In this document: positions 10,730 through 43,022 of the stretch, one piece after another
How the letters are laid out: each line of letters starts with the position of its first letter
How positions within the stretch are numbered: the first letter of the stretch is position 1
From: a virus
Reading direction: 5' to 3' (one strand)
Length of the DNA stretch: 45,543 bases
IMG/VR virus record: IMGVR_UViG_3300033064_001947
Coordinates: 1-45,543 of that record
Made by a program: the position numbers and the translations under genes
Notes under the pieces: generated by a model
Seen by the model: only the letters and a program-made list of their open reading frames with translations
Told to the model about the DNA's origin: nothing
Databases searched by the model: none

Positions 10730-10954
10730 TCATCGCTCTGATTCGCCAGAATCAACTGAAATACTATCTCCATCATCTATATTTCTAAGCCATGGTATAA
10801 TAATTTTTTTAATACCGGCACGGTTTTCAGTAAACTCCTTATCGAGTTCGCCACCGGTTCCATATAAAGTAATCCAATAGCCACGTTTAAAAGAACCTTC
10901 TTGTAAATTTTGAATTTCTTCTCTAATTATTTGTCTTAATTCTGATTGTTTCAA
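10730..10954 (-). CDS. Leader-tagged small protein, TTG start
   Basis: Seventy-four residues starting at a TTG, chosen because AGGAG lies 7 bases before it and because translation then begins exactly with the shared leader MKQSELRQIIREEIQNLQE. Predicted cleavage after LQE leaves a 55-residue cargo beginning GSFKRGYWITLYGTGGELD, which is not recognised. An upstream ATG in frame (11029) lies inside the neighbouring gene and is not preferred. Confidence 0.7.
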   Translation of the reverse strand: MKQSELRQIIREEIQNLQEGSFKRGYWITLYGTGGELDKEFTENRAGIKKIIIPWLRNIDDGDSISVDSGESER

Positions 10955-10971
10955 TGTAATTCTCCTAAGAT

Positions 10972-11526
10972 TTAGGCAAATGGCGTTGCGCCGGAACCGG
11001 TAGTGAATACATGCCCAGTTACCTGCCATTTACTATCACTAACTGCACGATATGAAATATGACTTCCGATAAAACGTCCTTTTGCATCTTCATCAGCTAC
11101 AAACTGATAATCTGCGACATCTGGTACTGAACACGACATTGCTAAGCTAATTCCGGCAGAACCTGAATTAGAGGTATAGCATACACCTTCTAAAGTATCT
11201 GCGGATGATGCGGCAACTACTGAGAATGCACCTGAACCAGTAATAGTTGTACCTACATGAAAATCAAAATATAGGCCTGCTTCTGCGGCAGGTAAAGTAT
11301 GAGCTGTACCACCATCAAAGTTTAACAAGTATATATTACCTGAATCTCCAGCTGTTAATGTTGCAGTAGCTAATGCATTAGTATTTACATCAATTACTGG
11401 TCGTGTATTATGACAACTATCTATTAAATTACCCATAACGGTGCCTTCAAGTTTTCCAGCTCCGCCCCCATACGTAGCTATATTAGTTACGCTATTTTTT
11501 AATCCTGTTTTTGATATTGTACTCAT
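10972..11526 (-). CDS. Probable structural or decoration protein
   Basis: A 184-residue protein rich in serine, threonine, glycine and alanine with beta-strand character (NALATATLTAGDSGNIYLLN). It has no leader and no (L/I)xE start motif, unlike its neighbours. The position between scaffold and cargo genes and the composition fit a head decoration or other virion surface protein; no specific family is recognised. AAGGAG precedes the ATG. Confidence 0.55.
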   Translation of the reverse strand: MSTISKTGLKNSVTNIATYGGGAGKLEGTVMGNLIDSCHNTRPVIDVNTNALATATLTAGDSGNIYLLNFDGGTAHTLPAAEAGLYFDFHVGTTITGSGAFSVVAASSADTLEGVCYTSNSGSAGISLAMSCSVPDVADYQFVADEDAKGRFIGSHISYRAVSDSKWQVTGHVFTTGSGATPFA

Positions 11527-11547
11527 TTGTTTGTTCTCCTTAAAAAT

Positions 11548-11706
11548 TTAATCATATATTTTGTCATCATCACCTACGTAAAAATGTACTTCACCAAATG
11601 ACTTTGCCAATTTAGTTAAATATTGCCTTAATTCTTTAGATGAAATACCTTCATTTAATAATTGTATTTCTTCTCGTATAATTTGCCTTAATTGTGATTT
11701 TTTCAC
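11548..11706 (-). CDS. Leader-tagged micro-protein, GTG start
   Basis: Fifty-two residues from a GTG with GGGAGGA 5-6 bases upstream. It starts with MKKSQLRQIIREEIQLLNE followed by glycine, so the cleaved cargo is only about 33 residues (including ELRQYLTKLAKSFGEVHFY). It directly follows the bS21 gene stop. The short cargo with an intact leader is useful evidence that the leader itself is under selection. Confidence 0.7.
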   Translation of the reverse strand: MKKSQLRQIIREEIQLLNEGISSKELRQYLTKLAKSFGEVHFYVGDDDKIYD

Positions 11707-11928: not shown

Positions 11929-12189
11929 TTACCATTTCGTTAAATGTGCGTGTTTATAATATCTATCTTTATTTTTCTTTTCTTCTTTTTCCATCTCGCG
12001 TTTAGTATCACTGGCATCTTGTTTGTCATCTGTATAATAAGTTCGCGCTTCATCTCGTTTACCATTTACAGTAACAACTACTTGATATTCACCATCTACC
12101 TTTTTTATTTTAAAAGTCGCGGATTCCCAACTTTCTTGTAGCACCCGAATTTCTTCTCTAATAATTTTACGTAATTCTGATTTTTTCAT
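11929..12189 (-). CDS. Leader-tagged small protein
   Basis: Eighty-six residues: leader MKKSELRKIIREEIRVLQE, predicted cleavage before serine, then a charged cargo with a possible beta-hairpin (ATFKIKKVDGEYQVVVTVNG). The cargo family is not recognised. The start overlaps the upstream stop (ATGA). Confidence 0.72.
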   Translation of the reverse strand: MKKSELRKIIREEIRVLQESWESATFKIKKVDGEYQVVVTVNGKRDEARTYYTDDKQDASDTKREMEKEEKKNKDRYYKHAHLTKW

Positions 12190-12599
12190 TTTTTTGAGCC
12201 CCCATAATTACTAATAAATTTTAAAAAATTTTTTAATGCCATTACAAGTTTAACTTGGGCGTCTTTAACATATAATTCAGGGAATTCCATATAAACATTT
12301 TCATCTGCCATTCGCAATTTTACTGGTAATCCATTATAATGTAAATCAAGACCATATGTACTTTCATTTAACTCACCCCGGAACCCAGCTTTTATCAAAC
12401 CATCTATAAATTTTCTATCTTCTCCGGAATCAACATGCGCCGTAGTAATTTTAGCTAATGGAATTTTCTTTTCTTGCAATGTTTTAGCAGTAGTTGTATC
12501 ATCTAATGTTGGTAAAGGTTCTCCAAATGATCGTTCAAATGAATATTTTTCTGCTAATAATTCTTTTAATTTTACTGGTCTTTTTACTGGTCTTTTCAT
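12186..12599 (-). CDS. Protein with long KYSFERSFGEPLPTL-type leader
   Basis: A 137-residue protein from the ATG at 12599, chosen because GGGAG lies just before it; a longer in-frame ATG falls inside the upstream gene. The leader has a duplicated KRPVKRPVK, then LKELLAEKYSFERSFGEPLP and a second cleavage-type motif (TLQE before lysine). The same leader is found in the next gene upstream and at 13954-14238. The cargo (HVDSGEDRKFIDGLIKAGFR) is unrecognised. Confidence 0.68.
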   Translation of the reverse strand: MKRPVKRPVKLKELLAEKYSFERSFGEPLPTLDDTTTAKTLQEKKIPLAKITTAHVDSGEDRKFIDGLIKAGFRGELNESTYGLDLHYNGLPVKLRMADENVYMEFPELYVKDAQVKLVMALKNFLKFISNYGGSKK

Positions 12600-12600
12600 T

Positions 12601-13008
12601 TTACTCCCTAGATGCAATATTAAATTGTCGTTTCTTTTTATCATATGAGCCTCTATATGATCCTTTAAAGAAATGTTTGAATACTGATATTAACCACGTT
12701 ACCATTTCATCGGTTCTTTCAGAAAGTTCTTTTGCCATTTGAATTGTATATATTTGATATCCACCACCGTCAGGTTTTATTTTAGGTGTAACAAAATAAT
12801 CTTTAACTGATTTTGGACCATATACTTTATTCAATTCTTTTACTATATGTCGCATTGCTGATTTCATCGGCGCTGGTGCTAATTTTGGTAATTTTTCTTG
12901 TAATTTAGCCTTCGTAGTATCTTCTAACGTCGGAAGAGGTTCTCCAAATGATCGTTCAAATGAATATTTTTCAGTTAATAATTCTTTTAATTTTATTTGT
13001 TTTTTCAT
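12601..13008 (-). CDS. Protein with long KYSFERSFGEPLPTL-type leader
   Basis: A 135-residue protein. The leader runs LKELLTEKYSFERSFGEPLP then TLEDTTKAKLQE, with possible cuts after LLTE and KLQE. The cargo is a basic domain (MKSAMRHIVKELNKVYGPKS) that does not resemble the cargo of its paralogue-leader neighbour, so only the leader is shared. It is separated by one base from the next gene. Confidence 0.68.
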   Translation of the reverse strand: MKKQIKLKELLTEKYSFERSFGEPLPTLEDTTKAKLQEKLPKLAPAPMKSAMRHIVKELNKVYGPKSVKDYFVTPKIKPDGGGYQIYTIQMAKELSERTDEMVTWLISVFKHFFKGSYRGSYDKKKRQFNIASRE

Positions 13009-13017: not shown

Positions 13018-13392
13018 TCACTTTATTAATAACTCATATTGTTTTTTACTCTTAATTGTTATATCAACATATTTTGTTGAACCTTTAGCAAACGGTTTTT
13101 CTGAATCATAAAATAAATTATTTGCTGCTTTTTTAATTTTCCAAAACATTGGACCTGCTACGGTTATACCTTTTGCTACACCCACCACTTGTCCATTATT
13201 ATCAACAGAAAATTTAAACCCAAATCGCATTTTTGTTAATTTTTCTAAATCTTGTAATACAGGTATTAATTTTTGTAGTTCACTAATATCCTTATTTACT
13301 TGCGATATAGTTTTAGAAATATCATCTGTAAATGATTCGGTCAATAATTGAATTTCTTCAGTTATCATTTTTCTTAATTCTGATTTTTTCAT
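13018..13392 (-). CDS. Leader-tagged small protein
   Basis: A 124-residue protein: leader MKKSELRKMITEEIQLLTE before serine, a helical segment (KTISQVNKDISELQKLIPVL), then a basic alpha/beta domain. The cargo family is not recognised. ATGA coupling with the upstream gene. Confidence 0.7.
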   Translation of the reverse strand: MKKSELRKMITEEIQLLTESFTDDISKTISQVNKDISELQKLIPVLQDLEKLTKMRFGFKFSVDNNGQVVGVAKGITVAGPMFWKIKKAANNLFYDSEKPFAKGSTKYVDITIKSKKQYELLIK

Positions 13393-13775
13393 GCAAATAC
13401 TCCAAATTTGTCTGCATACTTTTCTAATGCAAATAGAAATTTTTGTGGATCGCTTTTAATACTTTTAATTGAGTTTCTTACGCCATTTACGTTTACAAAT
13501 TTTTTCAATAATAATATTTCGTTTTTACTTAATTTAGTTCGCTGTGGAAATCCAAGGTCTGTGTGTTCTATTCCTTTAAGAACTGGAGTTTCTTTTATTG
13601 TCTCATTTAATTCAATATCATAGCTTCCACATTTTGGACATTGTACCTCAAGATTTTTTCCAATCTTCTTTTTAAATTTATATCCACATTCCATACATTC
13701 AAGCTTAGTAGAAGCGTCTTCAAAAAGTTTTTGAATTTTTTCACGAATCAATTGCCGTAATTCTGATTTTTTCAT
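13389..13775 (-). CDS. Leader-tagged zinc-ribbon protein
   Basis: A 128-residue protein: leader MKKSELRQLIREKIQKLFE before aspartate, then a four-cysteine zinc ribbon (CMECGYKF ... CPKCGSYD) at about residues 27-51. The remainder is helical. The ribbon suggests nucleic-acid or protein binding. This arginine-8 is encoded CGG, where other leaders use AGA or CGT. Confidence 0.75.
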   Translation of the reverse strand: MKKSELRQLIREKIQKLFEDASTKLECMECGYKFKKKIGKNLEVQCPKCGSYDIELNETIKETPVLKGIEHTDLGFPQRTKLSKNEILLLKKFVNVNGVRNSIKSIKSDPQKFLFALEKYADKFGVFA

Positions 13776-13777: not shown

Positions 13778-13957
13778 CTACTCCTTATACGGAAATTTCT
13801 TATTTAATAGGTTCCTACGTTCAGAACATCCATTACACTCTCTAATTGTATCCTTAAAGACACGTTTAATAGCACGTGACACTGTATCACCTAAACCTTT
13901 ATCGTTCTTGATTACGGTACGTTTAATCGTGTTTAAATCACTTTTAGTTAGTTTCAT
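13778..13957 (-). CDS. 59-residue protein with CNGC motif
   Basis: It encodes MKLTKSDLNTIKRTVIKNDK, continues with a helical segment and ends CNGCSERRNLLNKKFPYKE. The C-x-G-C-x-x-R-(R/K)-x-x-L-N ending is a pattern I recognise in other small phage proteins. It may bind metal. ATG overlaps the preceding stop (ATGA), and the next gene follows within 3 bases. It lacks a leader. Confidence 0.65.
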   Translation of the reverse strand: MKLTKSDLNTIKRTVIKNDKGLGDTVSRAIKRVFKDTIRECNGCSERRNLLNKKFPYKE

Positions 13958-14238
13958 ATTGATGTTATTTCCCGAACTATACCGTTTGCCAAATTAATAA
14001 TTTGCCCTTTTAATTTAGTACTAACCGGTTGGTTATTCATTACAGCTTTTTTGGCGGTTCGTACTGTAGATTGCAAATGACTTACCTGCTGTTCAATATG
14101 TTTAATGACATCTATTCCAAAAGCTTCCGTTAATCCATTAGATTTTGCATCTATCGTATTTTGAAGGGTCGGCAATGGTTCGCCAAACTCACGTTGAAAT
14201 GAATATTTTTCGTTTAATAGTGCTTTTAATTTTTTCAT
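13954..14238 (-). CDS. Protein with long KYSF-type leader
   Basis: Ninety-four residues: leader MKKLKALLNEKYSFQREFGE then PLPTLQNTIDAK and GLTE before alanine, so a cut near residue 38 leaves a 56-residue helical cargo (DVIKHIEQQVSHLQSTVRTA). Both ends are coupled by ATGA. Confidence 0.7.
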   Translation of the reverse strand: MKKLKALLNEKYSFQREFGEPLPTLQNTIDAKSNGLTEAFGIDVIKHIEQQVSHLQSTVRTAKKAVMNNQPVSTKLKGQIINLANGIVREITSI

Positions 14239-14499: not shown

Positions 14500-15158
14500 T
14501 ATTTTTCATCCGCGGCTTGCCAATTATTCTCAATATAAGTATAAAAAGCTTTCTTTTTTCCATCATCTAAATCTTCTGGAGATGTAACACCATATTTCTT
14601 TAATGCGGACCTAAAAAATTCTTGATATTTAGAATCTTCTTCTTTAATATCTTTCTTCTTTTTACCACAACCACCTTCACTTTGAATATCATAGTACTTC
14701 CCAAGGATGAATCCCATATTTTCATATAAGTCTTCCATTCGTCCTTGAATTCCCGATGCTTCACTAGCAATCTTATTGAATTCTTGTGCATATCCATTTA
14801 ATGATTTCATATTTTTATTAACTGATATCTTATCCATCCAATCTTCAGTTTCTTTAATAGCATGAGTTTTAGCAGTTTCGGCCATCTTAGATAATCGTTG
14901 TGCTAATTCTTGTAAATTACCTTCTCGGTAAATCATTTTACCTAAAGAACCATATTGATTAACTTCAGATAAAAATCCCTTTACATCAACATCCTCGTCT
15001 TGCTGGCCATATACCTCTTCTACTAATTCTTTAAGCTTAGGAGATTTAATATATTTTGGTCGAGGTGCAGGGGCAATTGATATATTATTAATTGCTGGTG
15101 TACCTACTATACCGCCTAATCCAAAAAATTCTTTTAATAAGTTTTTCTTTTTCTTCAT
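14499..15158 (-). CDS. Conserved phage head-associated protein with LLKE leader
   Basis: A 219-residue protein beginning MKKKKNLLKEFFGLGGI, then a helical body and the C-terminal pattern DDGKKKAFYTYIENNW. I recognise this start and end from other marine T4-type phage hypotheticals. LLKE before phenylalanine could be a cleavage site. The glycine- and lysine-rich segment (EGGCGKKKKD) separates two helical parts. Its role is unknown; an internal head protein is likely from context. Confidence 0.6.
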   Translation of the reverse strand: MKKKKNLLKEFFGLGGIVGTPAINNISIAPAPRPKYIKSPKLKELVEEVYGQQDEDVDVKGFLSEVNQYGSLGKMIYREGNLQELAQRLSKMAETAKTHAIKETEDWMDKISVNKNMKSLNGYAQEFNKIASEASGIQGRMEDLYENMGFILGKYYDIQSEGGCGKKKKDIKEEDSKYQEFFRSALKKYGVTSPEDLDDGKKKAFYTYIENNWQAADEK

Positions 15159-15180: not shown

Positions 15181-15531
15181 TTATTTAAGATATTTTTTTA
15201 CCAATTTATCAATTGCTTTATCAGTAGTATCTACAATTTTAGAAAATTCTTTCATAATACTTTCAGGCATTTGATCCCAATTATCCATATCATCACCATA
15301 GTTTAATTTTTCTTTACCTTTGATCCAATCACGATTTGACTCTGAATCTGTAATGCCTATTGATAACCATCTCTCATGCACAGTACCATTTGGATTATTA
15401 CTCGTCGCTATAGTTCCGGTAATATATTTACCTTTTGCATATGCCGAACCATTACCATGTTTGCCGGTTTGAATTTCGTTTAATTTTTGAATTTCTTCTC
15501 GAATCATCTGTTTTAATTTTGATTTCTTCAT
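15181..15531 (-). CDS. Leader-tagged small protein
   Basis: A 116-residue protein: leader MKKSKLKQMIREEIQKLNE, cut before isoleucine, then an unrecognised cargo (NGTVHERWLSIGITDSESNR) ending in a lysine-rich helix. TAATG coupling with the upstream gene. Confidence 0.72.
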   Translation of the reverse strand: MKKSKLKQMIREEIQKLNEIQTGKHGNGSAYAKGKYITGTIATSNNPNGTVHERWLSIGITDSESNRDWIKGKEKLNYGDDMDNWDQMPESIMKEFSKIVDTTDKAIDKLVKKYLK

Positions 15532-15697: not shown

Positions 15698-15988
15698 TTA
15701 TCCTTTAAAGTTTTTTTCAACATAATCTGAAAATATTTTTCTGTTAGAACCGTCCATATATTCAAAAAATTTGATTACATTATTATTATATTTATGAAAT
15801 TTTTTCAACATATTTGGACCATCTTTTCCAAACATCTTATTAAAATCTTCCTGTTGCCAATGATTCATAAAAAGTCCGATTTTCATAAGAGCATCATATA
15901 CTTTACTTTCAGTAAGTATTTCTTCACGTTCACTTAATCTAAAATCTACCCATTTACGTTGCATTCCCAATAATGTTAATTTATCCAT
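15698..15988 (-). CDS. Small protein with ILTE-type leader
   Basis: Ninety-six residues. The N-terminus MDKLTLLGMQRKWVDFRLSE runs to EEILTE before serine at residue 28, resembling the third leader type (tryptophan, then an aromatic, then (I/R)L...E). The cargo is an alpha-helical domain (FMNHWQQEDFNKMFGKDG), not recognised. Confidence 0.62.
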   Translation of the reverse strand: MDKLTLLGMQRKWVDFRLSEREEILTESKVYDALMKIGLFMNHWQQEDFNKMFGKDGPNMLKKFHKYNNNVIKFFEYMDGSNRKIFSDYVEKNFKG

Positions 15989-15989: not shown

Positions 15990-16271
15990 TTATTCTCCTG
16001 AATGCGCTTTCTCTGTTTCTAAAAATGATTTCAATACGCCCCTACCATATAATGTAGAATATACATTATTAAAATTACCTTGCTTTGCATATTTATTTAC
16101 TTCAAACGCATATCGTTTAATACTTGATTGTAATTGTTTTCTAGTCATTACACCATATCCTGGAACTTGCACCTTTGCTTCTAATGGTGTTTCGGTTCCC
16201 TTTTTAGGTGCAGTAATATCAGCTTCCTTTAAATTCTTTACTAATGATTTTAATGAGATGTTTCTATCCAT
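15990..16271 (-). CDS. Small protein with NLKE-type leader
   Basis: Ninety-three residues. The leader is MDRNISLKSLVKNLKE followed by alanine; the cargo is basic, with a proline- and glycine-containing strand (EAKVQVPGYGVMTRKQL). It is not recognised. Its stop is followed directly by the next gene. Confidence 0.62.
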   Translation of the reverse strand: MDRNISLKSLVKNLKEADITAPKKGTETPLEAKVQVPGYGVMTRKQLQSSIKRYAFEVNKYAKQGNFNNVYSTLYGRGVLKSFLETEKAHSGE

Positions 16272-16721
16272 TTACTTAAGCGCCTGCCACTCTCGGCCAT
16301 GATCCCTATAAATCCATTTTTTATCTTTTACAGACCAAAGATAATCGTATTCTTCACCGGATACATCTTCCCTATCTTTCACTGATTGAACACCATCCTG
16401 TTTCTCGCCTCGATCTCTACCATAAAAAACAGTTTGACCATCTACGGGATCTTTAAAGGTATGCCCTTCAGCACCTTTATAATCCTTGTTTAATGAAGAA
16501 ATTCCAGCTTTTCCTAATTTAAGTAATTCTTTTACTTTTTTAGTATCAGAATAATATTTTTTAAGAATTTTACCATTCCATGAAGTACCTCCATCCCAAT
16601 GGCAATACGTGGTTAAGACTCTACCATTCGGCATTTCTATACCAATAGTAGACCTAGTACCCTCAGTAAGAATGTAATCATTCCATTTTTTATCTATTTG
16701 TTCATATATTAATTTTCTCAT
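16272..16721 (-). CDS. Protein with YEQI...YILTEG leader and HWDGG domain
   Basis: A 149-residue protein. The leader MRKLIYEQIDKKWNDYILTE is followed by glycine and is closely matched by the 17710-18006 gene. The cargo begins with N-G-R-V-L-T-T-Y-C-H-W-D-G-G and continues NGKILKKYYSDTKKVKELL, a domain I recognise from other phage and bacterial proteins of unknown function. Upstream, the ribosome-site segment GGAAATTAAA is tandemly repeated. Confidence 0.72.
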   Translation of the reverse strand: MRKLIYEQIDKKWNDYILTEGTRSTIGIEMPNGRVLTTYCHWDGGTSWNGKILKKYYSDTKKVKELLKLGKAGISSLNKDYKGAEGHTFKDPVDGQTVFYGRDRGEKQDGVQSVKDREDVSGEEYDYLWSVKDKKWIYRDHGREWQALK

Positions 16722-16742: not shown

Positions 16743-17045
16743 TTAATTTCCCCTGGATATATTATGTCTAATTTTATCCCATAATTGTTGAATGAAATCT
16801 CGTTCAAATCCAGTTGTTGCTTTAATATCACCCTGCTGAATAGTTCTATGTAGGTCTAATGGTGTATATTTTTTAGATTTAAAATCACTAGTCATAATTT
16901 TAGCAATATCGTTTTCTGCTTTTCTAAGTATTGTTGTCATCTTACCCAGCGATTCCTTAGATCGTTTATTACTAATTTTGGAAGTATATGGCGGAGATGC
17001 TAATTCATCTAATTCCATTATTTGTTTGTATATTGATTTAGTCAT
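16743..17045 (-). CDS. Hypothetical small protein
   Basis: A 100-residue basic, helical protein. The N-terminus MTKSIYKQIMELDELASPPY resembles the YEQI leader type and has L-D-E before leucine, so it may be a diverged tagged protein. The start overlaps the end of the upstream gene by 8 bases. Confidence 0.58.
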   Translation of the reverse strand: MTKSIYKQIMELDELASPPYTSKISNKRSKESLGKMTTILRKAENDIAKIMTSDFKSKKYTPLDLHRTIQQGDIKATTGFERDFIQQLWDKIRHNISRGN

Positions 17046-17479: not shown

Positions 17480-17710
17480 TTAGATCCATTTCTCTAACGT
17501 TTTAATAAATCTTTGAGCTATATCGTGCCAGCCATAAAAAGAACGAGGATATTTTTCAGCCCATGCAATTGCTTTTTCTACTTTAACTTTTTTGATAACT
17601 GCTACTAAATCCTCAAGTAAACCTTCCATAGCATACCGAATATTTTCTGGATCTATATGTGCCTCGTTAAGCTCCGTTTTAATTATTTGTCGTAATTCTG
17701 ATCTTTTCAC
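17480..17710 (-). CDS. Leader-tagged small protein
   Basis: Seventy-six residues: short leader MKRSELRQIIKTELNE before alanine, then a helical cargo (EDLVAVIKKVKVEKAIAWAE). Not recognised. The start overlaps the upstream stop by one base. Confidence 0.7.
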   Translation of the reverse strand: MKRSELRQIIKTELNEAHIDPENIRYAMEGLLEDLVAVIKKVKVEKAIAWAEKYPRSFYGWHDIAQRFIKTLEKWI

Positions 17711-18006
17711 TATCTTAATCGCTTTTTAAGTTCAGTTTTAATTTCTTTAGCTACAGGGCCCGTCCAACTTCTGGCATTTGATAAAAAATATGCAACAATA
17801 CTAACACCACTATCTTGATAATACTTATCAGTTATTTTTTCAAGTGAATACATAGCTTCTAAATATGGTTTAGCCGCATAATTAACTTTTTTCCAGTCAT
17901 TACTGACTATAGCTGCTATTTCACTAATAGATTTAGTTGAGTACTGACCTTCTGATAGAATATAATTCGCCCATCGTGTTTCTATTTGTTCGTATAATTT
18001 TTTCAT
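17710..18006 (-). CDS. Small protein with YEQI...YILSEG leader
   Basis: Ninety-eight residues. The leader MKKLYEQIETRWANYILSE is followed by glycine and is a close match to the 16272-16721 leader, whereas the cargo (EIAAIVSNDWKKVNYAAKPY) is different. This pair defines a third leader type. Confidence 0.68.
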   Translation of the reverse strand: MKKLYEQIETRWANYILSEGQYSTKSISEIAAIVSNDWKKVNYAAKPYLEAMYSLEKITDKYYQDSGVSIVAYFLSNARSWTGPVAKEIKTELKKRLR

Positions 18007-18029: not shown

Positions 18030-18278
18030 CTAATCAAAATTCATCATGTGCATTTTATAATCACGTTGATGATCTATAGCTAATCTGACCGTAGAATATT
18101 TAGGCTTCATTTTTCCATATTCTTTTTTAATCTTTACTATAGCTTCTTTTTTAGATTTAGCTCTAACTGTATTCCAACCTCCACCTTCAAATTCAAACAT
18201 CCATTCATCTTTTGCGGAAGTTTCATTAAGTTTTCTAATTTCTTCCCGTATCATTTGTCTTAATTCTGATTTTTTCAT
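18030..18278 (-). CDS. Leader-tagged small protein
   Basis: Eighty-two residues from the ATG at 18278, chosen because GGAAG precedes it and the leader MKKSELRQMIREEIRKLNE then sits at the exact N-terminus; an upstream ATG lies in the neighbouring gene. The cargo (WMFEFEGGGWNTVRAKSKKE) is a small alpha/beta domain, not recognised. Arginine-8 is AGA here. Confidence 0.7.
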   Translation of the reverse strand: MKKSELRQMIREEIRKLNETSAKDEWMFEFEGGGWNTVRAKSKKEAIVKIKKEYGKMKPKYSTVRLAIDHQRDYKMHMMNFD

Positions 18279-18279: not shown

Positions 18280-18486
18280 TTATTTCTTCCAAGTAAATTT
18301 TGCTCCACCTTGAACTGTAATTGTTATTTCTTCAAGTTTGAAATGTTTATATAAATTAGGCTGAATTTCAGGAAACCACCTCATAAAAGTATTCCAATCT
18401 TTTGCGGTATGGGTTTTTACTTCTGTCAATAAATTTTGAAATTTTATTTCTTCTTTTATAGTTTGCCTTAATTCTAATTTTTTCAT
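18280..18486 (-). CDS. Leader-tagged small protein
   Basis: Sixty-eight residues: leader MKKLELRQTIKEEIKFQNLL then TE before valine. The cargo (DWNTFMRWFPEIQPNLYKHF) has a helical, tryptophan-rich start and a short beta ending. Not recognised. Confidence 0.68.
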   Translation of the reverse strand: MKKLELRQTIKEEIKFQNLLTEVKTHTAKDWNTFMRWFPEIQPNLYKHFKLEEITITVQGGAKFTWKK

Positions 18487-18487: not shown

Positions 18488-18934
18488 TTATATTATTCCA
18501 TTTTCTTCAAATTCTTTAGTTAAATTAAATTTTTTCCCCATCTTTTCAAAATGATTGGCCGCTTCTATGGTGTCGGCCCAGCTCATTGATTTATTTGAAA
18601 AGTCATGCTGCCAATCCAATGCTTGTTGTCTTGCATCTTCCTTTGTTTTTACGTTCTTCAATTTTGCCTCGTTTAATCGTTTAATTTCTTCTCGTTTAAT
18701 TTCTTCTCGTATCATTTGTCTTAATTCTGATTTTTTCATTTTTGATTCATATCTAATTTTATTTATATCATTTTTATGTAATAATTCATTTCCCTTAACA
18801 CTATTATACGTTTTATAAACAGAATTAAATCTATATTCGTTCCCATCAACTTTAATAGATTTCATTATTTTGTCTGTCATTGGATGCTTAATTTGTTTGA
18901 CATAACCATCTTTAGATATTTTAATATTACTCAT
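18488..18934 (-). CDS. Two-part protein with internal leader
   Basis: A 148-residue protein from the ATG at 18934 (AGGAG 9 bases upstream). Residues 1-65 form a small separate domain (KISKDGYVKQIKHPMTDKIM). The shared leader starts at residue 66 (MKKSELRQMIREEIKREEIK then RLNE before alanine), with an IKREE duplication caused by a tandem DNA repeat. A helical cargo follows. No ribosome site precedes the internal methionine, so a single protein cut by the protease is more likely than two starts. Confidence 0.65.
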   Translation of the reverse strand: MSNIKISKDGYVKQIKHPMTDKIMKSIKVDGNEYRFNSVYKTYNSVKGNELLHKNDINKIRYESKMKKSELRQMIREEIKREEIKRLNEAKLKNVKTKEDARQQALDWQHDFSNKSMSWADTIEAANHFEKMGKKFNLTKEFEENGII

Positions 18935-18938
18935 ATTC

Positions 18939-34719: not shown

Positions 34720-37107
34720 TTATCTATTAAACTTTAACATTCCAATAATCTGATTAAGGCTACTATAATTTCCGGTTATCTTAAAAAGTTCTCCTTTATA
34801 TAAAAATGTTATACCTTCGGAAGGAACAATTTTTTCAAGTCCACCATAAGAATTAATCTTTTCCAATTGTTGTGTTAATAATTCTATTTTTTTAGGGTCC
34901 CCACCCGATTGAATTTGTTTAATAGTATTATCTACATCCTTCTTTATTTTTTGAACTGCAATTTCCGGATTAGCAGTAAGGAATCCACTCATATTACTTA
35001 ATATTTCAGTACCCAATTCAAAAAATAACTTTTCAAACGGCAAAATATTTTGCTTAACATATTTTTTATGATCAGTTTTATCAAATGTTAATGCCCACTC
35101 AAGAAATTTTTCATTTTGAATAGTTTTTTTCATTTGTGGAATTGTATATGATTTATCAAAAAATGCCCAACGCTTAGTCAATTTTACTAAAATACCATAT
35201 GGTATTTGATATTTATTTTGTTTTGCACTATTATAAATAAACTCTTCCCAAAATTTTTGATGATATAATCCAAATGAATCTTTATCAGATAAATTATATT
35301 GTTTCTGCAATTTGTTTAATATTGATAAAAAATATTTACGTTTCTTTGTAAAATCTTGATGTTTAGGAACTGTTAATATTTGAGGTTTAATAATTTTATA
35401 TTTAGATTGAATATGTTGATTTATTTGCCTAATCATCCCTTCAAGAACTCTCGCATCAGATTTTATATATTCTATTGGATTACCCAATTTATCAAACCGT
35501 GTAGATCCATGAAATTGTAAAACTGCTTTATCATAATTAATAACATTAGCGGAGGCCGGCCAGATAACTTCAAGATTCATAAATTTTTCGCCTTCGGCAA
35601 ATATTTTTTGTTTTTGTTTATCACTTAACCCACTAATAGCTTTTTGCAAATCTTTCATCGCAAATACAAATGCGTCCTTAATATCGCCACGACCACTAAA
35701 CTTAGAAACCATACCATTTAAATCTAATGCATTTTCACCAAAATTCTTTCGGTCGCCTTTATTTCTAGCCGCAATAAGTTTATTATTTTTCCAGCTGATC
35801 GCGAGTGCTTGACCATCCGTCTTTTCTGCTACGTCACCCTCAACATCCAATCTACCCGATAATCCTAACGTAATAATTCGTTTAAAATCTCCAAAAGTCA
35901 AATTTTTATTATCAAACGGATGCTGAAGATGACCGAAACTGCCCCCTTCTAATAATAACTTATCTTCTAACACACCACTAACCTCTTTATTAACCTCTTC
36001 ATGCAATCCGAGTTTTCTCAAAATATCATCTGTATTTCCAGTATCTCCATCCGCTCCAGGTAATTCAGGGGCTTCTACATCAACACCGGTTGTAGTACGA
36101 TCCTTGACTCCTAACCAAGTAACTACCCTCCAACCCAACGGAGCCAAAACATCTCGCATTTGATTTTTATATTTTTGTACTGGATTTGCATATCCCTGAC
36201 CGTCACCGGATTTACCATATGCTACTGCTGGAACAATATTGTAAGACATTGTATAATCAATTTCCGGATCTTCTGCACCAGTGGATAAAATATATTGTAC
36301 AAGTTTCCAACCCACATCTTCATACATTGATTTAATCCATGCACTAGATTGAGTTTTATATTCTGTAAATGATTTATAAAAAGTTGGCGGACCATCATCA
36401 ACCGGAGCCAATGTTGTTTCTGTTGCTTCTTTTAGAATAGAGGCAATATCATTTTCTGCAATAAATTCAATAATTAAATCTTCATTTAAATATGGTGTTA
36501 ATGGTTTAATTTCTCCTTCATTAAATTTTTTAATCATATTACCATATATGTGTTCATCAAAATAACCAAATATTCGTTTAAAATCTTCTTTTGTTTTTAA
36601 ATGCTTGCGTATTTCAGTACCGCTCAATTCTTTTTCACCAAATTTAACAGAAACGTGTGGGACTTTATAAACATAACCATGCACATTATGACCTTCTAAT
36701 GCACTATCATCAAAATGTTGAAAATAAGATTTTTCACCACTCTTTTTTACCCCAGGTTTTAAACGAGATGCATCTTTTTCTCCTAATATATAAACAATTG
36801 CATATTTCTTAGGATCATATCTTTCAGTTACAGATTTAGCAATATATGGACTTTTTTCAAGCGCAATACGATTTTTAGGAACTCCCATTTTAATCAAATG
36901 TTTGACTTTTTCTTTAAAATCTAGTGGGCTATTTTTATCTACTTTGTTAGATGTAGAAATAAACACTTTATCAAATTTAGTAAGTAACGCCTCATATACT
37001 TTTTTATGATGTGGACCAAATGGGTTGAACCTGCCGGGATAAACTGCAATCACTTTACGCTTAACACCGTCCACTTTTAATTCCAATAAAATATCTGTCA
37101 ATAACAT
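34720..37107 (-). CDS. Nucleotidyltransferase and ligase-like fusion with capsid-type leader
   Basis: A 795-residue protein. After the leader MLLTDILLE, residues about 18-170 form a cytidylyltransferase-superfamily domain (YPGRFNPFGPHHKKVYEAL at 23-41, LSGTEIRKHL at 161-170). A middle part follows. After LLLE387 before glycine comes a domain with K-T-D-G (429-432), the lysine motif of ATP-dependent DNA/RNA ligases, then RNKGDRKNFGENAL and FMNLEVIWP. Sites ILKE227/A and LLLE387/G could release three pieces. I recognise the ligase-like region (FGHLQHPF ... KTDGQALAISW) from other marine T4-type phages. NMN or FAD-type chemistry and RNA repair are possible roles. Confidence 0.8.
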   Translation of the reverse strand: MLLTDILLELKVDGVKRKVIAVYPGRFNPFGPHHKKVYEALLTKFDKVFISTSNKVDKNSPLDFKEKVKHLIKMGVPKNRIALEKSPYIAKSVTERYDPKKYAIVYILGEKDASRLKPGVKKSGEKSYFQHFDDSALEGHNVHGYVYKVPHVSVKFGEKELSGTEIRKHLKTKEDFKRIFGYFDEHIYGNMIKKFNEGEIKPLTPYLNEDLIIEFIAENDIASILKEATETTLAPVDDGPPTFYKSFTEYKTQSSAWIKSMYEDVGWKLVQYILSTGAEDPEIDYTMSYNIVPAVAYGKSGDGQGYANPVQKYKNQMRDVLAPLGWRVVTWLGVKDRTTTGVDVEAPELPGADGDTGNTDDILRKLGLHEEVNKEVSGVLEDKLLLEGGSFGHLQHPFDNKNLTFGDFKRIITLGLSGRLDVEGDVAEKTDGQALAISWKNNKLIAARNKGDRKNFGENALDLNGMVSKFSGRGDIKDAFVFAMKDLQKAISGLSDKQKQKIFAEGEKFMNLEVIWPASANVINYDKAVLQFHGSTRFDKLGNPIEYIKSDARVLEGMIRQINQHIQSKYKIIKPQILTVPKHQDFTKKRKYFLSILNKLQKQYNLSDKDSFGLYHQKFWEEFIYNSAKQNKYQIPYGILVKLTKRWAFFDKSYTIPQMKKTIQNEKFLEWALTFDKTDHKKYVKQNILPFEKLFFELGTEILSNMSGFLTANPEIAVQKIKKDVDNTIKQIQSGGDPKKIELLTQQLEKINSYGGLEKIVPSEGITFLYKGELFKITGNYSSLNQIIGMLKFNR

Positions 37108-37862
37108 TATTTTTTTGCTTTCAATATTTTTTGATTTTCAATCCATCTACGGCCAATTTTATTTTTAACTGGAGCTTTAGCAAATTTATCAATATGCTGT
37201 TTAGCTATTGGGCCAAAATGTTTTTCTGGATCGTTAAGAAATTTTGAATTATCTACAACCACAAAATTTTTACCAAACAATTGATGGAACTTTCCAATAT
37301 TTTCTTGTACGCCATTCCATGCTAATTCAACAAATTTCGGATCGAGTTTACGTGCACGAGCCATATTACGTTTTTGCGCTATAGCAAGTGAAGTATTTAC
37401 AAATACCATAAAAGTATCATACCCTAAATCTTTTAATTCTTGCTGTTGAGATTGTATATTATTATAATTACGCCCTGTACCATCTATTATTAATCCTAAT
37501 CTGCCATTCATATATAATTTTTTACGTTGAGCAGTTAATTCTTTTGCGAATGATCTTAAAGATGCGCCTAATTCTTCAGTATCTTTATGAGTTAAATCAT
37601 AAAATACTTCTTTTGGCATTTTATCCAAATCAGTACCAAATCCATATTTCTTTAATAATGTTTCTAATTCAGTATCAGAATTAACCATCTTCATACCTGT
37701 GTATGAAATATTAATTTTATCTGGCACTCCAAATAATTGCTTAGTAACAAATGTTTTACCACTTCCAGGTCCTCCTGCTAAAAACACCGCTTTAAGAATG
37801 CCTGGATCATAAACTCCTTCATTCAATAATTCTGCTAATTTAATTATTTCCGTTTTCGCCAT
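37107..37862 (-). CDS. P-loop kinase (zeta-toxin-like) with capsid-type leader
   Basis: A 251-residue protein: leader MAKTEIIKLAELLNE before glycine, then Walker A GGPGSGKT (residues 30-37) and a kinase-like fold with LGLIIDGTGRNYNNI and an arginine-rich lid (AQKRNMARARKLD). It resembles the AAA_33/zeta-toxin group, which phosphorylates nucleotides, sugars or polynucleotide ends. Its position between the ligase fusion and the SWIM protein may suggest polynucleotide end repair, but the substrate cannot be read. It overlaps the SWIM gene end by 19 bases and the ligase start by one base. Confidence 0.82.
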   Translation of the reverse strand: MAKTEIIKLAELLNEGVYDPGILKAVFLAGGPGSGKTFVTKQLFGVPDKINISYTGMKMVNSDTELETLLKKYGFGTDLDKMPKEVFYDLTHKDTEELGASLRSFAKELTAQRKKLYMNGRLGLIIDGTGRNYNNIQSQQQELKDLGYDTFMVFVNTSLAIAQKRNMARARKLDPKFVELAWNGVQENIGKFHQLFGKNFVVVDNSKFLNDPEKHFGPIAKQHIDKFAKAPVKNKIGRRWIENQKILKAKK

Positions 37863-38341
37863 TTTAATTTCCCTAAATCTTTTTTCTTGATATATTCTTT
37901 AACTATTGGCCACGATGCAGTAATATGTTTACAAAAACTTAATTTATATTCAGGATTTGTAATATCTGGCATTCGACCATTACTTTCAACTCTTCGCGCT
38001 GAATTTCTTTTCCACAATACTGTTTCCCAACGATATTTAAAATCTGGGCACGTACAATTTGCATAAATTGACATATTACCTTGACCGATTCTTTTCCAAT
38101 TATCTTCAGTAATTGGCATTGTAGTCGGCGTTCTAAAATTTATATCGTAACTTGTACCAGATTTTGATTGAGATTGTGCTTTACATAAAAATCGCATCAC
38201 TCCACCTTTAGCAGTCTGCTTTCTAATTACCGTAGATAAATGAGCATTAATACTTTCCGCACGGCTTTTACGCATGGGATCAGTACGTTTATTAATTACA
38301 TTTAATCTAAGTTCGTTTAATATATTTTTTAAATTAATCAT
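37844..38341 (-). CDS. SWIM zinc-finger protein with capsid-type leader
   Basis: A 165-residue protein from the ATG at 38341, chosen because it starts exactly with the leader MINLKNILNE before leucine; longer in-frame ATGs lie inside the upstream endonuclease gene. The SWIM motif C96-x-C98 ... C137-x-H139 (NCTCPDFKYRW ... FCKHI) is complete. SWIM fingers bind DNA or proteins. Confidence 0.78.
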   Translation of the reverse strand: MINLKNILNELRLNVINKRTDPMRKSRAESINAHLSTVIRKQTAKGGVMRFLCKAQSQSKSGTSYDINFRTPTTMPITEDNWKRIGQGNMSIYANCTCPDFKYRWETVLWKRNSARRVESNGRMPDITNPEYKLSFCKHITASWPIVKEYIKKKDLGKLKWRKRK

Positions 38342-39032
38342 AATCACTTTTTCGCCCTTTGGATAAATTTTCCCGCCAGGGTAACATTTGTAAATTTTTA
38401 AAATTACCAATTTTTTCGTATGGAATATTTTTAAAAAACCCATCATGGATTGAAATTTTATGATCTAAGTGGTATGCATTAGGATTAATATCACATCTAC
38501 CCCGCTTCTCAATATTTTCTAATAAATATAATGGTTGTTTATTTGTTTCTCTATTTACCAATAGCCTATACCGTTTATATTCGGGTAGCCGTTTTAAAAA
38601 ATCATCATATGACATTCCCCACAAACCATAAAAAGATTTTTCGCGATGATCCAGGTGAGCTTCCTCTGTCATATTTTGTAAATACTTTTTACTACCGATT
38701 CTTAAATTCTCAATCCATTTTTTTGTAAATGTTCTTCGTTTCCCTAAATACCTATTACGAGTAATTTCAATCATTTTTTCACTCTGTAAATGACAGGTTA
38801 AACAGTTTCTACCTTGTTTAATTGCATATAAATAAGATCCTTTATTTTTATAAACCACTTCATTTTTACATTTTGGACATATTCTTATAAAAATTCCCTT
38901 ACTCTTAATCCTATTATATTTAGCCCTACATGGAATACATACAATATTATTTTTTATTGAAGTCTCATATGCCTTTTTATATTTATATTTAATATATTCA
39001 TCACAATCAGGACATTCTTTTTTATATATCAT
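38334..39032 (-). mobile_element. HNH-type homing endonuclease gene
   Basis: A 232-residue protein with four CxxC zinc motifs (CPDC 7-10, CIPC 32-35, CPKC 52-55, CLTC 77-80) and a C-terminal HNH-like region (YHLDHKISIH, then NFKNLQMLPWRENLSKG). It is a free-standing insertion between two cargo genes, overlapping the upstream one by a base and the downstream one by 8 bases. It has no capsid leader, unlike both neighbours. Confidence 0.8.
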
Positions 39033-40471
39033 TATTTATACTTCCTCAATACGTTTTTCACCACGCTCATAGCCTGCGATCTCGTGATTCTAGGATTTTC
39101 TAAATATTCCTCTTCAACAGCTTTTAATAATACACCTAACAATGGACCCGGGTTTAAATTAAATTTTTTCATAATATCATTACCATTAACTGGTAAAACA
39201 ATTTTTCCACCCTGACCCATATCTAAATCTTTTAATCTATTTCTAATTCCAGGAATCTGATCTGGCATATTATAATCTGGATGGTGTGCATTATTATCGC
39301 TTGCTATGACATCTAATGTTGCCTCCAAATGATCACCTAAATCTCGTTTTAATTTACGTAATGCCTTATCTGAGATTTGATCTCCTTTTGGGCCAGCTTG
39401 TTTAGTTCTCATATGACTACTAACTATTTTAACAACCACATTTATAATGTTAGAGGGATATTTTAACCGCATCATAATATCACGCGTTATCTCACCAGAA
39501 ACCCGCTCGTGCTCATAAAAATGTATTTCTTTTTTAACCACCGTTTTTGTAGCAGATTTACCAATATCATGAAAAAGGGCAGCTAATCTTGTTGTTAAAT
39601 CGGGCGGAACATTTTTTAATACTTCTAATGTATGTTTTCCTGCTGACCACTTATGAAATTTATTTTGTTTTAATTTATGCAATTTATCGAGTTCTGGAAT
39701 AACAAACTTTGATAATCCAGTAATTCTCATTAATTTAACTGCTTTATCTGGATATCCTGTTACTAACATTTTATCTAATTCATCACGAATACGTTCCATT
39801 GATATATTTTTCAATTGTAATGCATTTTTCTTTAATGCACGAATCATAAACATTGGAAGTTTCCAGTTATATTTAACAGTAAATCTAATCGCCCTTAACA
39901 TTCTAAGTGGGTCTTCCGTAAATATTATATCTGGATCCATTGGTGTTTGAATAATACCAGACCTAATATCATTTTTACCTTGACCAGTAAAATCTAATAT
40001 TTCACCGGTTGTTAAATCCTTCAGTAAGCTATTCACTGTAAAATCACGACGTTCAACATCTTGTTTTAATGTTCCAGTGCCAACTTCTGGTTTACGGCTT
40101 CCTTTAGTATATTTTTCTGTTCTGGCCATAACCGCTTCAATTTCCAACTCTGATAAATCAACACCTTTATGCTTTACACCATACAATTGAAATTTAGCAG
40201 TACCAAACTTTGGGTAAGTTACAGGATTACTGCCACTTTTATATTTACCAATTTTCTTTGTAATCCACTCTGCAAATTTTATTCCACCATCTGGAGTGGA
40301 TACAACTAAATCAATATCTTTTATCGGCAATCCCAACAATTCATCACGTACTGCGCCTCCTGCCACATAAACTTTACCTTTAAATGGTGATTTTTTAATC
40401 ATCTTACTAAGATAATCCATTGCCGCTTTCTCTTTTTTACCCTCTAATAATATGTTTTTTAATTTAATCAT
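39032..40471 (-). CDS. CCA-adding/poly(A) polymerase-type nucleotidyltransferase with capsid-type leader
   Basis: A 479-residue protein: leader MIKLKNILLE before glycine, then a class II tRNA nucleotidyltransferase: GGAVRDELLG with DIDLVV (Asp pair), RRDFTVNSLL, EDPLRMLRAIRF, then an HD domain (LAALFHDIGKSATKT ... YEHERVSG). The family adds CCA to tRNA 3' ends or adenylates RNA; the HD domain acts as a phosphohydrolase or phosphodiesterase. A role in repairing or altering tRNAs early in infection would fit packaging in the head. ATGA coupling with the neighbouring metalloprotease gene. Confidence 0.9.
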   Translation of the reverse strand: MIKLKNILLEGKKEKAAMDYLSKMIKKSPFKGKVYVAGGAVRDELLGLPIKDIDLVVSTPDGGIKFAEWITKKIGKYKSGSNPVTYPKFGTAKFQLYGVKHKGVDLSELEIEAVMARTEKYTKGSRKPEVGTGTLKQDVERRDFTVNSLLKDLTTGEILDFTGQGKNDIRSGIIQTPMDPDIIFTEDPLRMLRAIRFTVKYNWKLPMFMIRALKKNALQLKNISMERIRDELDKMLVTGYPDKAVKLMRITGLSKFVIPELDKLHKLKQNKFHKWSAGKHTLEVLKNVPPDLTTRLAALFHDIGKSATKTVVKKEIHFYEHERVSGEITRDIMMRLKYPSNIINVVVKIVSSHMRTKQAGPKGDQISDKALRKLKRDLGDHLEATLDVIASDNNAHHPDYNMPDQIPGIRNRLKDLDMGQGGKIVLPVNGNDIMKKFNLNPGPLLGVLLKAVEEEYLENPRITRSQAMSVVKNVLRKYK

Positions 40472-41001
40472 ATATTATCTATTATATAATCCAAATTTGG
40501 ATTTTTGCCCTTCAAATCTTTCCAATACTGTGATGTTAAAAATGGTTTATACAATGAATCCATATTTGCATACGCTTCTTTTTCCCACGGAAGATTTTTA
40601 TATGTATTATTTTTAGTCATTATTTTTTTATAATCCAATACTTTAATTATTGGTTTATTTTTCCATAATAAAGTTTTCCAATCTGTTGATACTGTCAATT
40701 CCTCACGAGAAATTTGTTTTACGTGTGTCAATTCATGTATTAAAACTTTTATAATGCCAGGAAAACTTAATGTTGGATTGAAATGTAAATAAAATTTGTC
40801 CTTATTTAACGAATTATTATTTAATACAATATCACCTGAAATATTAGGATTTTCCTTTTTCTTTACAATTATTTTAGAATTAATTCCATATTTTTTACTC
40901 ATAAAGTCAATGATTGATTTAGATATTAACGTTTCATATGATTTCATTTTCGTATCTGAAACAAACATACCTTCTAATAATATATTTTTTAATTTAATCA
41001 T
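40468..41001 (-). CDS. HExxH metalloprotease-like protein with capsid-type leader
   Basis: A 177-residue protein: leader MIKLKNILLE before glycine, identical to that of the CCA-adding enzyme. A zinc-protease signature HELTH lies at residues 89-93 (VLIHELTHVKQ), and a candidate third ligand in W-E-K-E-A-Y-A-N near residue 140. The remainder is not assigned to a family. If packaged, it would be a protease delivered to the host. Confidence 0.78.
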   Translation of the reverse strand: MIKLKNILLEGMFVSDTKMKSYETLISKSIIDFMSKKYGINSKIIVKKKENPNISGDIVLNNNSLNKDKFYLHFNPTLSFPGIIKVLIHELTHVKQISREELTVSTDWKTLLWKNKPIIKVLDYKKIMTKNNTYKNLPWEKEAYANMDSLYKPFLTSQYWKDLKGKNPNLDYIIDNI

Positions 41002-41528
41002 TTTAGTTTATAAATATATTTTTTATCATTTTTACTTGAAAATATAATCTTATCAACCATTATTTTTACACCCCGAAATGTAGTATTACCAACCAAATGA
41101 CTGTTTGAAAATTTCTTAACATACGCTAATGTTACATGAGGATTATACTCCTTATATGTATTATGGTTTTCCAATTGTTTTTCTAAAAAATAATGAACTT
41201 TTTCTAAATATTTACTCTTAACATTAATTATTACTACATCATAGTCATCTGGATCGGTAAATTTATCTATTTCGTCTAATTCAACTATAAATGGTTTAAG
41301 TATTTTTAATATTTTAAACGTTTTCTTTGGAAGTTCTTCCTCAATACCATATAATATTGTAAAATGTATTTCATCTTCGCGTCCATCAGATGCTAAAGTG
41401 CTATCTAATATTTCACTTTTTCCAAATGCAATAATTTTATTGGCTAATATTTTATCTATATCAAATTGAGTAGATGAATAGTCATATGATACTCCAAGGT
41501 TCTCTAATATATTTTTTAATATAATCAT
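40998..41528 (-). CDS. 2H phosphoesterase with capsid-type leader
   Basis: A 176-residue protein with two H-x-T motifs, His55-Phe-Thr57 (EIHFTILYG) and His131-Val-Thr133 (NPHVTLAYV), the signature of 2H phosphoesterases (2'-5' RNA ligase-like). Members act on 2',3'-cyclic phosphates or 2'-5' oligonucleotides; phage and viral members can degrade cyclic-oligonucleotide alarm signals. The leader is MIILKNILE before asparagine, a less typical cut site. Coupled to both neighbours by ATGA. Confidence 0.82.
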   Translation of the reverse strand: MIILKNILENLGVSYDYSSTQFDIDKILANKIIAFGKSEILDSTLASDGREDEIHFTILYGIEEELPKKTFKILKILKPFIVELDEIDKFTDPDDYDVVIINVKSKYLEKVHYFLEKQLENHNTYKEYNPHVTLAYVKKFSNSHLVGNTTFRGVKIMVDKIIFSSKNDKKYIYKLK

Positions 41529-41821
41529 CTCAACCGTATTACATTTTTATCAAACTTACGAGCATTCTTTTTTTCTTGTTTCATTTGTTTAACAATATCT
41601 GACAATTCCCGCGTCCAAAATTTTATATCATCACCAAGATGAGATGTCCACACAGACGTGGTTTTCAAATTAGCCAATATAATAGCAATATCATCATTCG
41701 TACTATACCAATAAAAATATCCCTCTCCACGTTTAAGTTTAATACCATATGGCTTCGCAATTTTATTCACGTTATGAATAGTTAATTTACCTTCTTCTAA
41801 TATTTTTCGTAATATAATCAT
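41525..41821 (-). CDS. Small protein with MIILRKILEEG leader
   Basis: Ninety-eight residues: leader MIILRKILEE before glycine, then an alpha/beta cargo (VNKIAKPYGIKLKRGEGYFY then SDIVKQMKQEKKNARKFD). Not recognised. Coupled by ATGA to the neighbours. Confidence 0.65.
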   Translation of the reverse strand: MIILRKILEEGKLTIHNVNKIAKPYGIKLKRGEGYFYWYSTNDDIAIILANLKTTSVWTSHLGDDIKFWTRELSDIVKQMKQEKKNARKFDKNVIRLR

Positions 41822-42636
41822 TTTATAAAAATAAATTCAAATCCCGCTATTTGTACAAAAACACATTGTTTATTTCCCCACTTTGAAATATAAGTTCCAG
41901 CAGTTGGATCACTACGGAAACCATCTGTAATCCATTCTTCCGGAGTTTCATCGTCATCTAATAAAGATGATAAATTTGCCATAAATAAAAATTTCTTAAT
42001 TGAAATTTTCTTTTTATTTTTCATCATGAGTTGCCAGTACTGCTCATTAGTATCATTTTTCATACGAAGTTTATCACATTGACCTATATATTTATATTTA
42101 GGTTGAGGATTCACTGCCTCATTCATTCCCAATATCTTTTTTAATTTACTTATTGTATCACTTGCTGATCTATGATATATTGCAATGCCACCGTTTTTCT
42201 TCCAAGATTTAATATTTTTAACTGTATCATCAATTAAAATATAATTTGATTTTGCATATCTACCCTTTTCACCCCTAGAAATTATTGCCGGAACATTACC
42301 CAATTCTCGTGAAATCCAAATTTTCTTTCCTTTAATACTATTAGCTTTTTTTGATGGTTTTGTCATTATAGTAGTATCAAAATTTTTATTGGCGAAATTC
42401 CATAGTTGCTTTGCATCCGGCATCCAACTCATATTTGCCCAAAATTTCAATCCTGCTTTATCAATAATAGACCAAAATTCTTTTGTACCATATTTATTCT
42501 CAAATTCCGTGCCGGATTTCATATTTTTGATACCTGTTAATGCAATAAAATCTCCATCAAAATCTGTAAGCACACCATCTAAATCCACAAACAGTTTATA
42601 CCGTTGTTCTTCTAATATAGGTTTTAATTTAATCAT
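41818..42636 (-). CDS. HAD 5'(3')-deoxyribonucleotidase-like protein with capsid-type leader
   Basis: A 272-residue protein: leader MIKLKPILEE before glutamine, then a HAD domain with the nucleophile motif D18-L-D20-G-V-L-T-D, a KPSKKAN segment (motif II region) and ILIDDTVKN (motif IV). This matches the 5' nucleotidase, deoxy (NT5C) group that dephosphorylates dNMPs. Near residue 178, M-N-E before alanine could release the C-terminal domain (residues about 180-272), which is separate and unrecognised. Confidence 0.82.
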   Translation of the reverse strand: MIKLKPILEEQRYKLFVDLDGVLTDFDGDFIALTGIKNMKSGTEFENKYGTKEFWSIIDKAGLKFWANMSWMPDAKQLWNFANKNFDTTIMTKPSKKANSIKGKKIWISRELGNVPAIISRGEKGRYAKSNYILIDDTVKNIKSWKKNGGIAIYHRSASDTISKLKKILGMNEAVNPQPKYKYIGQCDKLRMKNDTNEQYWQLMMKNKKKISIKKFLFMANLSSLLDDDETPEEWITDGFRSDPTAGTYISKWGNKQCVFVQIAGFEFIFIK

Positions 42637-43022
42637 ACCGAAAATTTCTTATTGCTCGTTTTAAAATCTTTTTTTCTCATAATGGTTTTTGCAACCATTT
42701 CAAATTCATGCGCATGTGGGTCCCATTTCAATACAAATGGAACATTAACATCTGTTCGCATATCTTTCAATACAGCTTCGGCGTGATCACCTAATTTTGA
42801 AATTGATTTGCCATATTTTTTATAGGTTTGTTGGAAAAGTCTGATTACTTCTGCAGGTGTAATTTCTTTTATATTTCTATAATCATTTACCCTATCTAAA
42901 AAATGCCTGGTAAATTCAATATCAATACCTACATAATCCCACAGATTATCTAAATACTGTTCAATTTTCTTCAATTGACTTGACGTAATATATTCTACCA
43001 ATAATCTTTTTAATTTAATCAT
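42633..43022 (-). CDS. Conserved phage protein with MIKLKRLLVE leader
   Basis: A 129-residue protein: leader MIKLKRLLVE before tyrosine, then IEFTRHFLDRVNDYRN, TPAEVIRLFQQTYKKYG and a C-terminal VAKTIMRKKDFKTSN. I recognise this conserved body from marine T4-type phages; its function is unknown. It is coupled to the HAD gene. Confidence 0.72.
   Translation of the reverse strand: MIKLKRLLVEYITSSQLKKIEQYLDNLWDYVGIDIEFTRHFLDRVNDYRNIKEITPAEVIRLFQQTYKKYGKSISKLGDHAEAVLKDMRTDVNVPFVLKWDPHAHEFEMVAKTIMRKKDFKTSNKKFSV

Follow-up and report, generated by a model that had tools for sequence, protein, structure and literature searches.

The tagged proteins that bacteriophage T4 injects are few, and those that are understood act against restriction or in host takeover. 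The tag, a capsid-targeting sequence, was described for the internal proteins (IPs) IPI, IPII and IPIII and for Alt by Mullaney and Black (1996), as reviewed in PMC9026906; mutagenesis of the IPIII leader assigned residues 4 and 7 mainly to targeting and residues 8 and 10 to processing, and it has been suggested that leaders of this kind allow T4-like phages to load a variety of proteins (PMC9026906). At least ten IPs have been reported across T-even relatives, and T4 Ip1-3, which have the leader alone in common, are injected and inhibit type IV restriction enzymes (PMC12373910). We analyzed the 45.5-kb IMG/VR virus record IMGVR_UViG_3300033064_001947 (GC content, 31%), the whole of which is called the window here, and found that about thirty of its proteins carry short leaders of a comparable kind. 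These leaders are very probably capsid-targeting propeptides that are cut, their cargo being packaged and injected with the DNA, and the locus is best read as a greatly expanded T4 capsid-targeting system with several kinds of leader.

The initial annotation had reported about thirty leader-bearing proteins, in agreement with our 35 candidate leader genes, 29 of which are clear (families A, D and K). All are on the minus strand; every leader start listed earlier translated as described, and the positions then given as gene ends are the start positions of these genes. The candidates comprise 13 of family A (M-K-K-S-E-L-R-Q-x-I-R-E-E-I..LxE), 13 of family D (M-I-K-L-K-x-I-L-x-E), three of class K (a D-like leader plus a second module common to the three proteins), three with the pattern W..(Y/F).LxE (W-type) and three weaker ones. 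The leaders are 9-24 residues long (for example, MIKLKNILLE and MKKSELRQIIREEIQKLNEG) and have (L/I/V)xE at their end; one protein holds its leader internally. No leaders of such type were seen on the plus-strand genes in positions 1-7440.

Comparison of the window proteins with one another revealed that the similarity was confined to the leaders. For residues 1-22, 32% of the proteins were linked to another at a BLOSUM62 score of at least 35, compared with 3% for residues 31-52; the same linkage of the first 22 residues was 2% and 8% in two control virus contigs. The motif (L/I/V)xE was present in the leader position of 35 of the 66 window proteins (15.7 +/- 3.4 with shuffled residues). The earlier statement that the sequences after this motif are unrelated held in general: an all-against-all BLAST with the leaders removed gave no convincing similarity between mature parts (best match outside class K, E = 0.011 with composition statistics off), except among the three K proteins, which share GEPLPTL. 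The DNA upstream of the leader genes showed no likeness (identity of 0.34, against 0.33 for other genes). Since the similarity is bounded by the start codon and LxE and the upstream DNA is unlike, the shared unit extends from the start codon to LxE. As in T4-type capsid targeting, a short N-terminal leader is common to unrelated proteins.

Based on the IPIII mutagenesis, we built the T4-register expression M..h..h[LIVF].E and ran it on all called genes. In T4, only IPII, IPIII, gp24 and 61.1 matched among the called genes; Alt matches the register by eye, its start having been placed earlier by the gene caller. The expression matched six window proteins (shuffled mean, 0.14) and nine proteins in a 155-kb relative (shuffled, 0.53), with no matches in two control contigs. 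In its ten-residue register, family D has hydrophobic residues at positions 4 and 7, followed by I/L8-x-E10, and the results with the expression place the family D leader in the T4 register; the (L/I)xE end, hydrophobic residues 4, 7 and 8 and E10 occur together strictly in six window proteins. The family A and W-type leaders keep the LxE end but are longer than the T4 leader. The major capsid protein of the window (phrog_138; 7715-9361, minus strand) carries LIDE/SS at about residue 64, at the place of FLTE65 in T4 gp23, the gp23 cleavage site; a similar protease specificity is therefore expected.

A prohead protease is encoded in the same gene block (18939-19553, minus strand). Its only Pfam match was Peptidase_S77 (E = 1.7e-29), and it aligned with T4 gp21 through ALGEL(D/N)HP and G(I/V)SSRGLGS; thus, with phrog_138 and the portal protein phrog_213, a gp21-type protease and T4-type head genes occur in one genome. 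The label MEROPS S80 (phiKZ gp175 type), under which the initial annotation had placed the protease, was rejected, Peptidase_S77 being the sole Pfam family. The S77 and S80 families are distant kin (PMC5694885).

The initial annotation had noted a prohead protease in the same transcription unit as the leaders, and the association extends beyond the window. Peptidase_S77 was found in 19 of the 42 family A contigs and 12 of the 29 family D contigs tested, which are mostly fragments. Among contigs of at least 99 kb, it was present in 9 of 10 that bear leaders and in 5 of 20 controls (Fisher p = 0.0014), the control virus contigs being holders of a chance match or of a leaderless HD homologue. All 13 leader contigs of at least 50 kb without S77 also had no T4-type capsid gene (12 had no portal, and in one the portal was truncated by the contig end), and they are thus fragments. 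In 80 neighbourhoods of close protease relatives, leader starts were found in 83 of 1565 open reading frames (ORFs), and internal methionines gave one match. The leader expressions matched none of 1065 ORF starts in cellular control loci and 3 of 1695 in control viral loci, one of the three in an S77-bearing contig. The association between the leaders and S77 is strong, yet it is no proof of use.

Leaders of these families are widespread in viral sequences. A degenerate DNA pattern for ELRQxIREE, run over fetched IMG/VR stretches, located family A at no fewer than 166 places; among the matches listed, 147 of 166 lie two to six residues past a methionine, the cargo amounts to 110 distinct sequences in at least 90 clusters, and 95 of 121 have [LIVMF]xE downstream of the pattern (30 +/- 5 when shuffled). 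The family D pattern was found at 90 IMG/VR places, nearly all of them open-frame starts, with 59 cargo clusters, and the scanned A and D leaders together represent at least 150 cargo clusters. The family A pattern gave 50 matches in 257 Gb of cellular sequence (84,980 genomes of bacteria and archaea), nearly all within long frames and none with a convincing leader context. A tblastn search of isolated phages with a 20-residue leader gave no match, probably because the query was too short for the sensitivity used. Orthologous cargos can retain leaders that differ in sequence: MGKLINILLSE begins the cytidylyltransferase of Mel-JY01, a Microcystis phage, MIKLKDILNE the kinase of the IMG/VR sequence L257, and MKKVMGNLADLLLEE the NT5C protein of the isolate Flavobacterium phage immuto, which adjoins A-type and 'RMQKLAGI' leaders. 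About ten A-like leaders lie between the terminase and the protease in a 484-kb metagenomic phage. In two leader-bearing phages (G027 and G010, the contigs of L152 and L118), an open S77 frame required readthrough of two or three TGA codons, and TGA may be recoded in them.

The T4 late promoter TATAAATA was not enriched on the leader strand of the window (7 vs 8.2 expected). The sequence TATTTAT occurred no more than 50 bases upstream of 21 of the 90 family D starts in IMG/VR loci (2.6 expected); it matches a portion of the T4 late promoter core in reverse complement and is a possible late promoter.

In the window, the candidate leader genes are located among the head-block genes and upstream of the head block, and the following coordinates all refer to the minus strand. 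Family A leaders were translated from 10898-10954 (LKQSELRQIIREEIQNLQE, with a TTG start within ORF 10730-11029), 11650-11706 (GTG start), 12133-12189, 13336-13392, 13719-13775, 15475-15531, 17663-17710 (GTG start), 18222-18278, 18421-18486, 18668-18739, 30289-30339, 31400-31447 and 31983-32027. Two of these had been described as internal copies; the last (RIKLKQIIREEVLTE, residues 67-81 of ORF 31677-32225) is truly internal, whereas the copy within ORF 18488-18964 has its own ATG at 18739, which may be the start. In ORF 31677-32225, a stretch of about 65 N-terminal residues (GDTILTGKFKNKK...GKDDHGMPTINGRKV) precedes the leader, and a cut at LxE would remove a long propeptide. The W-type leaders are at 15929-15988 (MDKLTLLGMQRKWVDFRLSE), 16662-16721 (MRKLIYEQIDKKWNDYILTE) and 17950-18006 (MKKLYEQIETRWANYILSE), and possible leaders are at 15129-15158 (MKKKKNLLKE), 16224-16271 (MDRNISLKSLVKNLKE) and 17004-17045 (MTKSIYKQIMELDE).

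The K proteins begin with the D-like leaders MKRPVKRPVKLKELLAE (12549-12599), followed by a SFERSFGEPLPTL module, and MKKQIKLKELLTE (12970-13008) and with the T4-register leader MKKLKALLNE (14209-14238), the latter two followed by the GEPLPTL module. This module, approximately [FW]xRKFGEPLPTLxD, stands directly after LxE in several proteins with differing leaders (12186-12599, 12601-13008 and 13954-14238 in the window, and L020, L025, L034, L314 and others elsewhere). The 42 distinct examples have remaining sequences that form 10 clusters, and the module would form the mature N-terminus.

Several family D leaders precede recognizable enzymes. MIKLTLLIE (33288-33314) starts an HD_4 alarmone-hydrolase-like protein (32829-33314) that matched PF13328 and whose best PDB hits were RelA/SpoT and small alarmone hydrolases; it has an HD domain of the RelA/SpoT kind, and (p)ppGpp is its putative substrate. 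Matches of this protein to solved structures start at residue 10-18, and leaderless phage HD homologues start at its would-be mature start. MIILKNILE (41502-41528) starts an Acb1/2H phosphoesterase-like protein (40998-41528; PF23474, E = 4.9e-9) whose EIHFT and NPHVT align with chains of the anti-CBASS protein Acb1, giving the two HxT motifs of 2H phosphoesterases; it may cleave cyclic nucleotides. A search for relatives with this Acb1-like protein found none. The other assigned cargos are a cytidylyl/nicotinamide mononucleotide adenylyltransferase-like protein of 795 residues (34720-37107; leader MLLTDILLE, 37081-37107), a zeta-toxin/AAA_33 kinase (37107-37862; D-like leader MAKTEIIKLAELLNE, 37818-37862), a CCA/poly(A) polymerase (39032-40471) and a metallopeptidase-like protein (40468-41001), both with MIKLKNILLE (40442-40471 and 40972-41001), and an NT5C-like nucleotidase (41818-42636; MIKLKPILEE, 42607-42636), the NT5C and metallopeptidase matches being weak. 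Further family D leaders are MKLKDILNE (31654-31680), MTLKMKILIE (32480-32509), MIKLKKLILQE (32800-32832), MINLKNILNE (38312-38341), MIILRKILEE (41792-41821) and MIKLKRLLVE (42993-43022). The matches of two window proteins to large phage families (phrog_12810 and phrog_23027) fell in internal or C-terminal domains of the latter, and several small family A cargos had no convincing Pfam family. These assignments suggest a broader kit of cargo that includes enzymes of signalling nucleotides, tRNA ends, nicotinamide adenine dinucleotide and alarmones.

By analogy with T4, the tagged proteins would be made late, and the amphipathic leader would bind the assembling prohead core, so that the shell encloses the cargo. 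The S77 protease from the same gene block would then cut after (L/I/V)xE, and the mature cargo would stay in the head and enter the next host with the DNA, supplying ready-made enzymes and inhibitors for the first moment of infection along with many small uncharacterized proteins. We predict that the leaders are removed in the virion and that they are sufficient for entry into the head. The expanded capsid-targeting system proposed in the initial annotation is supported by the T4 register, the association with S77 and the head module, the lack of real leaders in the cellular genomes scanned and the onset of cargo homology just past the predicted cut. Several points weigh against it. Family A is longer than the T4 leader and its homology to that leader is not demonstrable, and the number of tagged proteins might exceed the capacity of the core. 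In addition, 26 of the 121 family A leaders had no obvious [LIVMF]xE at the expected place, and the contig associations are between fragments, with related contigs not being independent. A family D leader was also observed on a protein with Peptidase_M23 and a tail-lysozyme domain (L309:1725-2969), an unexpected cargo with a kind of domain typical of tails.

The leaders might target proteins and be cut while the tagged proteins serve mainly to build the prohead core or to help set head size and are degraded or retained rather than injected. The small family A cargos without a convincing Pfam family would fit such a role, as would T4 IPIII, which copurifies with gp22 and has an effect on head assembly (PMC9026906), and the protein at the core position (T4 gp67/gp68; 20406-22148, minus strand), whose N-terminus is weakly family A-like. 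Among internal segments, its family A profile score of 1.8 would rank only at about the 99th percentile (1.3; maximum, 4.9), and we therefore do not claim that family A descended from it; in related contigs, N-termini at the gp68 position were enriched among weak profile hits (30 of 56 vs 41 of 1526, among related sequences). However, several cargos are nucleotide or tRNA enzymes, which a scaffold does not need, and T4 Ip1-3 are injected and act against restriction (PMC12373910), making a mainly structural role improbable.

It is still less probable that the leaders are amphipathic helices that bring proteins to the membrane or elsewhere in the infected cell, with the final LxE serving as an uncut helix cap. 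The family D leaders are indeed short, basic and hydrophobic; however, the frequency of LxE at the leader end is far above chance, the leaders track the gp21-type protease and the head module, and their register is identical with that of the mapped T4 sequence.

That the shared starts stem from recent duplication of a DNA cassette (a translation enhancer or recombination hotspot) whose peptide has no role is scarcely credible, because the similarity stops at the start codon with unlike upstream DNA, the family A arginines use several codons and the same peptides recur in distant phages, although codon identity within the leaders exceeds the independent expectation. Identical residues used identical codons at 0.71 in family A (0.53-0.56 under independent choice) and 0.85 in family D (0.55-0.59), which indicates that the leader copies are partly related by descent at the DNA level. 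The initial annotation was right that synonymous codons vary, although the variable arginine is residue 7 rather than 8, and its view that the peptide and not the DNA is conserved is overstated.

The minus-strand head block is of the T4 type and comprises a terminase in two parts (28065-28919 and 26032-27198), the portal protein (gp20 type, with an HNH-bearing insert; 23088-26018), the gp67/gp68-position protein, the protease, a very acidic scaffold-like protein at the gp22 position with ILTE near its C-terminus (9388-10488) and the major capsid protein. The N part of the split terminase large subunit (26032-28919) terminates in an intein-like start, CLWGKSIITV..., and is followed by a separate ORF with a zinc-finger-like start (27226-28071); the C part opens with a Hint-like stretch whose final residues are VSHN|CD. 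This arrangement resembles the atypical split inteins of phage terminases. The insert in the portal gene (976 residues) has intein-like ends (CVVPETKIPL... VIIHN|S), and ORFs 19546-20409 and 33899-34699 in the head gene block appear, by sequence only, to be GIY-YIG homing endonuclease-like.

If the capsid-targeting reading is true, injected effectors could be predicted from sequence (dozens per genome and, in environmental phages, well over a hundred families), it would become possible to test where and when unknown genes act, and the Acb1-like or alarmone-hydrolysing proteins may act ahead of any phage gene expression. We lean towards the wider view that the leaders are an address code that reveals, from sequence alone, an injected repertoire of considerable size. 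Each phage would have tens of such proteins and the abundant T4-like group hundreds of families, among them ready-made enzymes for counter-defence and nucleotide repair, and several leader classes would be interchangeable and served by one protease and one core.

Set beside the window by description, the Dar/Hdf proteins of phage P1 are likewise injected head proteins that counter host defence; to our knowledge, they have no comparable short leader family. The polyvalent proteins are similarly thought to be an enzyme set packaged and injected at the start of infection, but they are large fused proteins, whereas the window cargos are separate and each is tagged (Iyer et al. 2017, PMC5512222). 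The phiKZ and SPN3US systems (gp175/gp245, MEROPS S80) share with the window N-terminal propeptides of head proteins, a related protease and a short motif ending in E; the window protease, however, belongs to S77. In SPN3US, nine substrates were identified, mostly with AxE sites and propeptides 111-254 residues long (PMC10052503). No paper came up when the leader peptides were searched for in full texts, nor did we find any on the leader families themselves, on their cargo or on their number in a genome (most subscription journals were outside the search) or on the Mel-JY01 or immuto proteome. T4 is the closest counterpart, with a short leader on unrelated proteins, the (L/I)xE end, a gp21-type protease and, for family D, the same ten-residue register; however, T4 has three IPs and Alt, whereas the window has about thirty candidates in 32 kb and two or three additional leader families, 16-24 residues long. 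The principle is already known from T4, while the leader families, their number per genome and their cargo appear to be new.

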